From positions 1-59,336 of the forward strand of contig CALAOR010000048.1 of the NCBI GenBank assembly GCA_937889595.1: DNA of 59,336 nt, read 5' to 3'. Position 1 is the stretch's first letter. Every line of letters starts with the position of its first letter. A model generated the notes under the pieces. It was not told the origin of the DNA. It saw only the letters and a program-made list of their open reading frames with translations, and ran no database searches. The translations under genes and the position numbers were made by a program. The DNA comes from an uncultured bacterium (GTDB lineage Bacteria > Oederibacteriota > PGYV01 > Palsa-1178). Shown in pieces: positions 55,897 to 59,336 of this stretch.

Positions 55897-55949
55897 TCTA
55901 CTATCTACTCTCACCTATCTACTTTCTCCAATTTTTGCGAAGCGAAAAT
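55897..55949 (-). repeat. Trailer of the interrupted tRNA-Lys: hairpin plus heptamers
   Basis: CCAATTTT-CGCTTCGCA-AAAATTGG begins at the CCA of the interrupted tRNA-Lys. AGTAGAT/AGGTGAG/AGTAGAT/AGTAGAC heptamers follow to 55897. The block TCTACTCTCACCTATCTACT is shared with the tRNA-Leu trailer. Confidence 0.65.
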
Positions 55950-56102
55950 TGGTGGGCAGTGAGGGAGTCGAACCCTCGGCCAATTGATTAAGAGTCAACT
56001 GCTCTGAGATGCAATTGTGAGCCGAAGGTGAACAACTTATAATAGGCCTCATCTACCTCTCAGCTTGCCGGCTGATTTCCGGCACCGCTGAGCTAACTGC
56101 TG
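55950..56102 (-). pseudogene. tRNA-Lys(CUU) copy interrupted by 78 nt in the D arm
   Basis: From the CCA (55950-55952) back to AGAGC (56005) this is identical to the intact tRNA-Lys at 56127-56201. A 78-nt insert (56006-56083) then separates it from the 5' part GCAGTTAGCTCAGCGGT (56084-56100), which has one D-loop change and two acceptor mismatches (CA for GG at positions 1-2). The insert folds with the D arm: CTCAGC/GCTGAG and GCCGG/CCGGC stems. Most likely a pseudogene; an excised intron at this site has no bacterial precedent that I know. Confidence 0.75.
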
Positions 56103-56126
56103 ACGCTCTAACGCTTTCGTAAAAAT

Positions 56127-56201
56127 TGGTGGGCAGTGAGGGAGTCGAACCCTCGGCCAATTGATTAAGAGTCAACTGCTCTACCACTGAGCTAACTGCC
56201 C
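56127..56201 (-). tRNA. tRNA-Lys(CUU), CCA encoded
   Basis: Acceptor GGGCAGT pairs with ACTGCCC, discriminator A. Anticodon loop CTCTTAA gives CUU. D arm TAGCTCAGTGGTAGAGC and T arm GGGTTCGACTCCC are canonical. Confidence 0.95.
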
Positions 56202-56366: not shown

Positions 56367-56443
56367 TGGTGCGCCCGAAGGGAATCGAACCCCTGACCAA
56401 CAGATTAGAAATCTGCTGCTCTATCCAACTGAGCTACGGGCGC
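56367..56443 (-). tRNA. tRNA-Arg(UCU), CCA encoded
   Basis: Acceptor GCGCCCG pairs with CGGGCGC, discriminator A. Anticodon loop TTTCTAA gives UCU. D arm TAGCTCAGTTGGATAGAGC and T arm GGGGTTCGATTCCC are canonical. The repeat-bounded AT-rich array starts 30 bp to its 5' side. Confidence 0.95.
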
Positions 56444-56472: not shown

Positions 56473-56543
56473 ATGACTAACTCGCTTAACAAAATCTATC
56501 ACATCAATAGAATCTCGTCAAGGCTCAATGCGAGGTGACCGTT
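56473..56543. repeat. Partial copy of the 207-bp repeat at the array edge
   Basis: This matches only the right third of copies A-C, from ATGACTAACTC through the terminal repeat AAGGCTCAATGCGAGG. The match stops at the core-like GTTATAT of the full copies. Confidence 0.75.
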
Positions 56544-56620
56544 TACTATTATTCTTGCTTTATGCCGGTTTTTCTTTTATATTAATATCTGTTAATTTAA
56601 TTAAGATTCCGGGGGATAAA

Positions 56621-57097
56621 ATGGACAGGTCGAAACTAATTGACGCGTTGAGGCTAAATAAGGATATTTTAACAAGTTTTATTGAAAGAATCCCGCAAGA
56701 GTCGGTCGTGAAACGCCGTAAGGATTTCTGGACCATCTTTGAGCACATAGAGCACCTCACCCAGTCGCAGGTCATGCTTTACCACAGGATAGAGGCCTTT
56801 ATTAATGAAACCAAGCCGGTTATCAAGTCTTTCATGCCCGACAATAAACCAAAAATGGACACATCAAAGAGCGTAAAACATTTACTGGACATTTTTGCCA
56901 TCTGGCGGGATAAACAGGCCGTCCTAATAAGCGCCTGCAAAGAGGATATCTGGGAAAAGAAAGCCAAACACCCCGAGTATGACGTATACACTTTCGAAAC
57001 AATGATCTACCATATCCTCGCCCATGACGGATACCATATGTATAGAATGGAGGAGCTATGGCTGTTAAAGGACGAATTTATCAATCCACTAGTATGA
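56621..57097 (+). CDS. DinB-like family protein
   Basis: This 158-residue four-helix protein has the DinB metal pattern: a histidine in FWTIFEHIEHLTQSQVMLYH and HILAHDGYHMYRMEELWLL near the C-terminus. DinB/YfiT-like proteins are metal-dependent thiol transferases or hydrolases, often acting in detoxification. ATG 56621 has GGGGGA 5 nt upstream; the frame stays open to 56528. It is the only plus-strand gene in the repeat-bounded array. Confidence 0.75.
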   Translation: MDRSKLIDALRLNKDILTSFIERIPQESVVKRRKDFWTIFEHIEHLTQSQVMLYHRIEAFINETKPVIKSFMPDNKPKMDTSKSVKHLLDIFAIWRDKQAVLISACKEDIWEKKAKHPEYDVYTFETMIYHILAHDGYHMYRMEELWLLKDEFINPLV

Positions 57098-57108
57098 AAA
57101 AAATGGTC

Positions 57109-57315
57109 AGTGGCCATACCTCGTATTGAGCCTTTAGAATTTTTCACTTCTGCTTCGCCACAGTTGAATGTTACATGATATACTGCGCTGGCTGTGAGTA
57201 TCCGAAGCTGCCTGCCCATCTGTTTTACCCCTATATTGTTATATGACTAACTCACTTAACAAAATCTATAACATCAAAAGAAACTCGTCAAGGCTCAGTG
57301 CGAGGTCTTACCGCT
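57109..57315. repeat. 207-bp repeat, copy A, with RAYT N-terminal fragment
   Basis: Terminal inverted repeats of about 28 bp share ATTGAGCCTTTA at the inner end. On the minus strand the interior has AGGGG, then ATG (57219) reading MGRQLRILTASAVYHVT, the typical start of REP-associated tyrosine transposases; the match ends after about 19 residues. Spacing to copies B and C is 905 and 790 bp. Confidence 0.8.
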
Positions 57316-57941
57316 TTTAGGCTTTTTGTTTTATTTAATGTTGCATTGACTTGTATTTTAGATGAAAAATTCTTAGGCATAAATTCTAATCGTAGTATTG
57401 TTCTTGATCTTGGTAAATAATATACTTTAACTAATTCATCTCTTTGAGGCGCTCTGTCAAACGCAAACACTTGAGAGTAGCTTTCATTTTCACCTTTTAA
57501 ATATATTCCCCTTTCAATCGGAGGGAAATAACCGCTATTTGCATCTTCAATAATTCCGTATTTTTCATTTACTTTTTCACCACAAAATAAACCCACTGTA
57601 TCCCTATAAATAGGAAAAATAACAAAATAACCTATAAATACCGTAATTATGCCGGTTGCTGATCTTACAAGAATATTAAGAATTTTTCTTGTTCGTTCAT
57701 TCGTAACTCTTTCAGTAACAGTTATCGATTTGGGATTAAAAGCATAATTGCCCAAAGCCCAAATGCCAGCAGTATATAAAATCAATGCATAGATTAATCG
57801 AATTAGCCATATTTGCATTCCAAAAAATATATTTAAGATGTTCAAACAAACTATTATTAAAACAAATGTAATTAGTAAAACTCCATTAACACTAAACGCG
57901 AAACGGGTTAAAAGCACAATAAAACTATTATTATTCTTCAA
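57288..57941 (-). CDS. AT-rich membrane protein of unknown function
   Basis: This 217-residue protein has about four membrane helices (ALLITFVLII-type segments at 20-36 and 43-64, a third near 95-112) and a soluble C-terminal domain (IIEDANSGYFPPIERGIYLK then VYYLPRSRTILRLEFMP). Its last ten residues and stop are encoded inside the terminal inverted repeat of copy A. Composition is far more AT-rich than the main chromosome. No family was recognised. Confidence 0.65.
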   Translation of the reverse strand: MKNNNSFIVLLTRFAFSVNGVLLITFVLIIVCLNILNIFFGMQIWLIRLIYALILYTAGIWALGNYAFNPKSITVTERVTNERTRKILNILVRSATGIITVFIGYFVIFPIYRDTVGLFCGEKVNEKYGIIEDANSGYFPPIERGIYLKGENESYSQVFAFDRAPQRDELVKVYYLPRSRTILRLEFMPKNFSSKIQVNATLNKTKSLKAVRPRTEP

Positions 57942-58013
57942 GTTTTTTCTCCACCATTAATCATTTGGGTTTCTTCTGTTTTTTCAAGTTTTTCACTCCG
58001 CCTGACTTGGGTC

Positions 58014-58219
58014 AGTGGTCATACCGCGTATTGAGCCTTTAGAATTTTTCACTTCTGCTTCGCCACATCTGGATGTCACATTATATACTGCGCCGGCTAT
58101 GAGTATTCGAAGCTGCCTGCCATCTGTTTTACCCCTATATTGTTATATGACTAACTCACTTAACAAAATCTATCACATCAAAAAAATATCGTAAAGGCTC
58201 AATGCGAAGTCTGACCACT
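58014..58219. repeat. 207-bp repeat, copy B
   Basis: The same element as copy A. A one-base deletion in the GCCTGC(C)CATC stretch puts its RAYT-like start out of frame. In the 365-nt gap 57942-58306 only this repeat was recognised. Confidence 0.8.
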
Positions 58220-58306
58220 TTTAACCATCTTTGCAATACGCAACACAATATGCAATACCCTGATAAATAACTAAGCCGCAACAACAAAACGGCTCTGATT
58301 TCAATT

Positions 58307-58756
58307 TCACTTAATTATTTTATATAAAACTTCACCCGATGCTAGATTTTTTAGATATATCTTGTTTCCGTTCTTAATTATTTTGTATTTACAATCCGTT
58401 ATTATCTTCGTCGAAAACAAACCAACATCCTCATAGTAACAAAGTTTCATCCCTGGATCTAATTCGATAATATTTTTTTTAAATTCAATTACATGTTTTC
58501 GCGGAGAATCATCAGCCAATCTGATGCTTTCATTTTTGTTTATATCTTTATAAACCCCAGGTAAATCTATTAAACTATTTCCTTTTATTTCAATAAAACC
58601 GTATGTTTTCACAATTTGCGTTCTTCCTCCTACTAAAATAGGTTCTTCTCCAACAGTATAATAATCGCCTTGTAAGTCCACTTCGTCAATAACTCTTTCA
58701 TTACAGCTCACAGTTAATAAACTAATTATCGTTAGGTATATAAATATACTTTTCAT
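58307..58756 (-). CDS. AT-rich lipoprotein of unknown function
   Basis: This 149-residue protein has a lipoprotein signal (MKSIFIYLTIISLLTVSC, lipobox LTVSC). The mature part is beta-rich and polar (GDYYTVGEEPILVGGRTQIV, TDCKYKIIKNGNKIYLKNLA). No family was recognised. It ends 88 nt before copy B and starts 48 nt after copy C, so it is a single-gene unit. Confidence 0.6.
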   Translation of the reverse strand: MKSIFIYLTIISLLTVSCNERVIDEVDLQGDYYTVGEEPILVGGRTQIVKTYGFIEIKGNSLIDLPGVYKDINKNESIRLADDSPRKHVIEFKKNIIELDPGMKLCYYEDVGLFSTKIITDCKYKIIKNGNKIYLKNLASGEVLYKIIK

Positions 58757-58803
58757 TTATATTTATTGTGTTCGCTTAAATACGTGTCATAACCATATGT
58801 GTC

Positions 58804-59010
58804 AGCGATCACACCTCGTATTGAGCCTTTAGAATTTTTCACTTCTGCCTCGCCACATCTGGATGTCACATGATATACAGCGCCGGCTATTAGTACTCGA
58901 AGCTGCCTGCCCATCTGTTTTACCCCCATATTGTTATTTGACTAACTCACTTAACAAAATCTATCACATCAAAAGAATCTTGTAAAGGCTCAATGCGAAG
59001 TCTGACCGCT
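58804..59010. repeat. 207-bp repeat, copy C, with RAYT N-terminal fragment
   Basis: On the minus strand ATG 58914 reads MGRQLRVLIAGAVYHVTSR, the best-preserved RAYT start of the three copies, then diverges into CGEAEVKNSKGSIRG, which is shared with copy A. The terminal inverted repeats are intact. Confidence 0.8.
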
Positions 59011-59035
59011 TACTATTATATTTGTTAAGAACAAA

Positions 59036-59336
59036 TCAATCTTTAAATGTGTTATTAAAACGCAATGCTTCACCACAATATAAACAAATGGTTCTATCCG
59101 CACTGTTTTGCTTTGCACAATATGGACAAATAATATTTATGTTTTTAAAAATCATCTTGCTTATCATGCCAATAATGGCCATCAATAATAATCCACCGGC
59201 AATAGAAAATGTAAATGCTATTAAATCAACAACAAAAACAAGCGCATGCTTATTAAATAAACGTTTTATTGCAGCATCAATCGGAATTTTTTTTCGATTT
59301 TTTCAGCAAATCGCGAAGGAGTTGTGTACAACTTCC
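59036..59336 (-). pseudogene. Zinc-ribbon membrane protein, partial and apparently frameshifted
   Basis: The C-terminal 90 residues read in one frame: a hydrophobic segment (LVFVVDLIAFTFSIAGGLLL and more), then ICPYCAKQNSADRTICLYCG, a four-cysteine zinc ribbon, ending FNNTFKD. Upstream, a run of eight A (minus strand, about 59286-59293) appears to shift the frame: LRDLLKKSKK continues as IPIDAAIKRLF only with a one-base change. It is cut by the window edge. A sequencing error or a true frameshift cannot be separated. Confidence 0.5.

Follow-up and report, generated by a model that had tools for sequence, protein, structure and literature searches.

An integron-like gene array in a candidate-phylum bacterium probably arose by repeated insertion of MITEs derived from a RAYT element

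We analysed a 59,336-base stretch of DNA (the window), which is the entire contig C48 of a 3.42-Mb genome assembled into 93 contigs and 99% complete. Near its right end, single genes alternate with repeats in a layout reminiscent of an integron. We conclude with good confidence (a probability of about 0.84) that the repeats are non-autonomous MITEs of a TIR-flanked (TIRYT) RAYT element, that the array was built by repeated insertion, and that the genes between the repeats are not cassettes.

Repeats of the window and their copies in the genome

The end of the window is also the end of the contig. A preliminary description, made from the letters of the window alone, had reported three full 207-bp repeats and one partial copy in its terminal part, and all four are present:

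56473 to ~56543, minus strand: remnant P, retaining only the tnpA-5' end (the window right end) of a MITE, with the left part gone
57109 to 57315, minus strand (sense of the tnpA remnant): MITE copy A, BLAST extent 57105 to 57317, with inverted ends and matches to both ends of the element on contig C75
58014 to 58219, minus strand (sense of the tnpA remnant): MITE copy B, from BLAST, fold and end alignment
58804 to 59010, minus strand (sense of the tnpA remnant): MITE copy C, from BLAST and end alignment

Copies A, B and C are ~207 bp each with a pairwise identity of 89-92%, and the repetition of the full copies is far above chance (E = 1e-110 to 1e-72 in a genome-wide search). Searching the whole genome with the repeat gave 15 matches; full MITE copies number four, three of them inside 1.9 kb of the window. 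The other copies are mostly single and dispersed over the genome, an outcome that the preliminary description had itself named as counting against its integron-like reading. In 58 other genomes no copy of the repeat was found.

Structure and origin of the repeat

The repeats had been described as lacking matching RYYYAAC/GTTRRRY ends. End alignment reveals that each of the four full copies is bounded by terminal inverted repeats ~27 bp long, with the sequence AGYGGTCAGACYTCGYATTGAGCCTTTA and some differences, which the preliminary description had missed. The parts of copy A, and their counterparts in the other two copies of the window, are as follows:

57109 to 57135: terminal inverted repeat of copy A on the tnpA-3' side; equivalents at 58014 (copy B) and 58804 (copy C)
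57165 to 57219, minus strand: tnpA remnant of copy A, transposase codons 1 to ~18 (MGRQLRIL..AVYHVT)
57289 to 57315: terminal inverted repeat of copy A on the tnpA-5' side; equivalents end at 58219 (copy B) and 59010 (copy C)

As a single strand, copy B forms a much stronger fold than its shuffled versions (z = -3.7).

The preliminary description had also recommended a search for a full-length RAYT that begins with the same residues as the repeat, and one with nearly identical first residues was found in the same genome: contig C75 carries an intact tnpA of 324 aa, bracketed by a pair of repeat matches. The protein scores 58.6 bits against Y1_Tnp PF01797 (cut-off 23) and 92.7 bits against NCBIfam REP_Tyr_transpos NF047646 (cut-off 80), and both profiles place the element among the Y1 HUH, RAYT-type, IS200/IS605-related elements. 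Its C-terminus resembles Bac_DnaA_C (PF08299, 27 bits, E 4.7e-6), below the curated cut-off of 31.5, and other DnaA models likewise scored below cut-off there. The gene is flanked by inverted ends at C75:68476 and 69572, one of which adjoins an IS110-type insertion that blurs the exact boundary. The nearest named relative of this tnpA, found in a candidate division FCPU426 genome, is 81% identical to it.

Taken along the tnpA strand, the repeat falls into two aligned parts: positions 8-153 correspond to the 5' part of the C75 element as far as tnpA codon ~18, and positions 149-202 to its 3' end, starting at codon ~317 and running via the stop to the end of the element. What the repeat retains is thus the pair of inverted ends, the first ~18 codons of tnpA and its last ~7. 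By these alignments each copy is a MITE, formed by internal deletion from an element with a Y1/HUH REP-associated tyrosine transposase; it is short, has kept the ends of the parent and contains no complete transposase. The proposal that the repeats are RAYT-derived and include the start of a transposase is thereby borne out. The MITE leader and the C75 leader share only ~71% identity, so the C75 copy is not the direct parent but a close relative of it.

Two observations concern this element family more widely. In the FCPU426 genome (L062:2706-4838) a tandem pair of distinct RAYT genes occurs, of which the leading one is 81% identical to the C75 transposase, and the tandem layout recurs in G003:C114. 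Moreover, the IS110-type elements on C52 (L017:4866-6266) and C75 (L020:7543-8928) are related, with 69% DNA identity and transposases that read MHYVGVDLHKEQSWFYVSD..., and both start at one and the same position in the RAYT element end (GAGGTCTGATAATATGTTAAG), which looks like targeting of the RAYT inverted repeat by the IS110 element.

Comparison with known repeat systems

The repeats of the array appear to fit the published TIRYT/TIRtron kind. TIRtrons consist of RAYT-like (TIRYT) genes set between long inverted repeats, in which the motif GGGGWSAS is frequent, and their TIR families are moderately abundant, spread in dimers and sometimes in clusters (Di Nocera et al. 2013, PMC3733652). TIRYTs were later assigned to TnpA subclass 2.1, which has DnaA-like C-termini (PMC6006769). 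The features in common are a Y1 transposase, a DnaA_C-like C-terminus (here below cut-off), terminal inverted repeats that flank the gene, and the spread of TIR families in dimers and clusters. The ends of a sister repeat family in this genome read GGGGTCAG, fitting GGGGWSAS, whereas those of the main family read AGTGGTCAG or AGCGGTCAG, with one or two mismatches to this motif, which is present in many but not all TIRYTs. The present system differs further in that its host belongs to a candidate phylum and in that the short form keeps both ends of tnpA.

Two other kinds of short derivative invite comparison. The 271-nt PATE of Halanaerobium is an ends-only IS200/IS605 derivative retaining a stretch of coding sequence (PMC7290912); the internal deletion to an ends-only form with part of the coding sequence kept is the same here, but our repeats have a RAYT-type parent with long inverted ends and occur in several copies. 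REPINs, or BIMEs, are REP doublets mobilised by RAYTs (PMC3116915). Like them, the repeats of the window have two inverted REP-like ends and would depend on a RAYT for mobilisation in trans. REPINs are generally shorter and far more numerous and are not known to contain a tnpA remnant, whereas the present repeats are 207 bp long, few, and contain such a remnant.

Genes and locus around the repeats

The features beside and between the repeats are as follows:

56367 to 56443, minus strand: tRNA-Arg(tct), at the edge of a conserved cyclase-tRNA neighbourhood
56528 to 57097, plus strand: DinB_2-family protein (PF12867, 39.8 bits, cut-off 24.8), probable start 56621
57288 to 57941, minus strand: membrane protein of no family, 31% GC, with its final codons supplied by the end of copy A
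58307 to 58756, minus strand: putative lipoprotein of no family, 29% GC
59036 to 59336, stop near 59035, minus strand: zinc-ribbon membrane protein (PF11023, 27.5 bits, cut-off 21), its 5' end lost at the contig end

All four genes had been recognised correctly in the preliminary description. The AT-richness attributed to them is confirmed for the membrane protein, lipoprotein and zinc-ribbon genes (29-31% GC) but not for the DinB gene, with 41% compared with 46% for the contig. Of the minus-strand genes said to end just before or inside a repeat, the membrane gene stops inside copy A, the zinc-ribbon gene ~25 bp from copy C and the lipoprotein gene 86 bp from copy B. The membrane gene looks as though its original end had been overwritten by the MITE. 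Only the zinc ribbon exceeded cut-off in Pfam and NCBIfam searches of the AT-rich array genes.

The cyclase-tRNA block beside the array is conserved in relatives, and none of the array genes tested was present at the conserved cyclase-tRNA locus in eight related genomes. Since these genes are missing from the corresponding loci, the array probably occupies a variable site at which insertions are tolerated. Among 640 ORFs in the ~0.75 Mb sampled, 24 were of low GC (<34%); about four of these 24 lay beside repeats, against about 8 of the other 616 (8 counted by eye; P = 0.0006). This excess of low-GC genes next to repeats counts against our reading, but the sites are clustered and not independent. 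Repeats also adjoin genes of normal GC.

The repeats do not behave as attC sites

The alternating layout, genes ending at repeats, and isolated GTTRRRY and RYYYAAC matches within the repeats are what a degenerate or unusual integron might offer, in which the repeats would serve as attC sites for a tyrosine integrase. We regard this as extremely improbable. The repeats descend from a transposase gene, and many copies stand alone, outside any array. The ACTTAAC and GTTATAT motifs to which the preliminary description had drawn attention do exist, but they sit in the transposase leader and have no attC geometry, and no paired R and L boxes in inverted arrangement were found in the repeats. Nor did the suggested search for intI return an integrase above cut-off in this 99%-complete genome (an IntI could fall in the missing part): the integron integrase model found two loci (C57 and C65), both below cut-off, and sub-cut-off matches likewise occurred in 14 of 14 control genomes. 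The attC/IntI reading was therefore rejected on box geometry and on the integrase profile search. With no sign, moreover, that genes moved together with the repeat, the label 'integron-like' is unsupported, and the resemblance to mobile integron cassette arrays is superficial, resting on the repeat-gene-repeat layout; here there are no IntI, no attC boxes, and repeats derived from a transposase.

Repeat orientation follows the GC skew

The strand of each copy was compared with the local GC skew, from which alone the direction of replication was inferred. Copies were scored on the plus strand in contigs with negative plus-strand GC skew (C48, C75, C78, C79, C14 and C20) and on the minus strand in those with positive skew (C52, C10 and C90). 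This rule held in nine of nine contigs (sign test P = 0.004), although C79 and C14:9960 carry one duplicated unit and are thus not fully independent in the contig count. Sites were counted if they had at most three mismatches or a significant BLAST match to end-specific sequence, and these gave zero exceptions; right-end matches with 5-6 mismatches were left out as chance, four of which violated the rule. The count includes the sister repeat family, which has the ends GGGGTCAGACCTCGGATTGAGCGTTTAGAATTG and variable lengths and follows the rule too:

L056:5207-7335 (C10): sister repeat family
L057:5191 and 7548 (C14): sister repeat family
L058:3425 (C20): sister repeat family

Provided that skew reflects replication in the usual way, the strand in the sense of tnpA is the lagging-strand template at every site. 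Members of the IS200/IS605 group excise from and insert into the lagging-strand template, tracking the direction of replication (PMC5371812, review), and the orientation found here follows the skew-inferred replication direction in the same way. In the six contigs counted, ~73-90% of the long ORFs lie on the lagging-template strand (29 against 8 on C48, for example, or 47 against 5 on C79). Insertion into the lagging template combined with this strand bias of genes would explain why the repeats are co-oriented with genes; two ordinary biases suffice, and no cassettes are needed.

The same strand bias could also arise by selection for co-orientation with transcription, if MITEs survived only at places where the hairpin follows a gene and runs in its direction. 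In keeping with this, the repeats are located at gene 3' ends, and genes are mostly co-directional with replication. We nevertheless think it unlikely that selection accounts for the uniform orientation: up to ~27% of genes point the opposite way, yet not one confidently assigned site is an exception. Moreover, remnant P faces the start of a gene, and copy A and a half copy on C52 are flanked by convergent genes, a setting in which transcription favours neither orientation.

A model for the origin of the array

Taken together, the data suggest the following course for the insertion of MITEs. The alignment shows that an ancestral copy shed tnpA codons ~19-317 but retained the inverted repeat at either end. 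A Y1 transposase acting in trans, for example the intact TnpA of C75, could then have mobilised the short form as single-stranded DNA, consistent with the several copies and their orientation. Insertion would have been into the lagging-strand template, as the orientation pattern and the known chemistry of IS200/IS605 suggest. Repeated insertion into a variable spot beside the tRNA-Arg, usually 3' of a stop codon and among AT-rich genes of recent acquisition, would have produced the array, whose genes lie outside the element ends and would never have been cassettes. The MITEs probably act as transcribed, REP-like hairpins downstream of genes. Published REPs are found mainly on the 3' side of genes, and TIR families of such elements form clusters (PMC3733652). 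No site was found that would set a clean MITE insertion against an empty site. Four full copies are few, and random insertion does not give three of them in 1.9 kb; we infer that this clustering came from a tolerant spot or from local insertion.

This interpretation removes a false integron. It also provides a clean example, from a candidate phylum, of a cassette array imitated by single-strand insertion coupled to replication, in which replication direction and the strand bias of genes account for both the uniform orientation and the gene-repeat-gene spacing. The test of repeat orientation against GC skew is also a cheap screen for other integron-like calls.

A duplicated single-gene unit

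The preliminary description had further proposed that a Y1 (HUH) transposase, and not IntI, mobilised the genes as cassettes. The Y1 RAYT origin of the repeats stands, but the part of the proposal that treats the array genes as cassettes is not supported. In such a system RAYT ends would mobilise single genes, either as a gene plus one end or between two MITEs, and so build arrays. A unit found elsewhere in the genome bears on this:

C79:104815-105488 (L018:4815-5488): ~675-bp unit
C14:9960-10635 (L019:4960-5635): ~675-bp unit, 91% identical to the first, in unrelated surroundings

The unit contains one small gene whose stop is directly followed by 50 bp of the tnpA-3' end of the element. Similarity between the two units stops sharply at both limits, namely the outer edge of the element and, opposite it, ...GAAAAATTAC, and the genome holds no further copy. 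In a same-genus relative (L102:3283-3868) the gene stands at a third place without that end, followed by a different inverted repeat. The gene may have gained the element end at a short shared stretch (GAAGCAGAAG), and the pair may afterwards have been copied.

In favour of cassettes, the array genes do end at repeats, and most are AT-rich. The unit is the strongest argument left for gene carriage by such a transposase, though its layout differs from that of the window: the gene of the unit lies inside the element end, whereas those of the window lie outside complete elements. Furthermore, the far end of the unit has no significant inverted end, neither the membrane protein nor the lipoprotein has a second copy in this genome or a homologue in 58 others, and most of the sampled low-GC genes have no neighbouring repeat. 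We consider cassette formation by the Y1 transposase improbable as the origin of the array, and insertion of MITEs beside genes remains our preferred reading.

RAYT-type transposases are usually regarded as domesticated. That TIRYT/RAYT transposases move single genes with one acquired element end, as a slow, integrase-free cassette system, is a long shot in our estimation, for which the duplicated unit is a testable lead. A possible second, degenerate inverted end on the unit's far side was discarded, since its local alignment score of 20 was reached by 3% of shuffles and equalled on the opposite strand. The small gene matched no Pfam family, NCBIfam model or solved chain, and a ferritin-like name, prompted by an EEKxHA motif seen by eye, is not claimed.

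Contig ends and tRNA-Lys

The 12-mer GGAGTTGTGTAC occurs, facing, at the ends of two contigs (window 59318-59336 and C52:49670-49686). No target duplication is visible at the C48-C52 junction, and a pattern search gave no decision there. The shared 12-mer suggests that one repeated element broke the assembly at both ends and that the two contigs may be neighbours, in which case the array would extend onto C52.

Finally, a 61-bp tRNA-Lys sequence is present as an exact copy (window 55945-56005 and 56122-56182) upstream of the intact tRNA-Lys, and it also has an exact match in a same-genus genome (L094).
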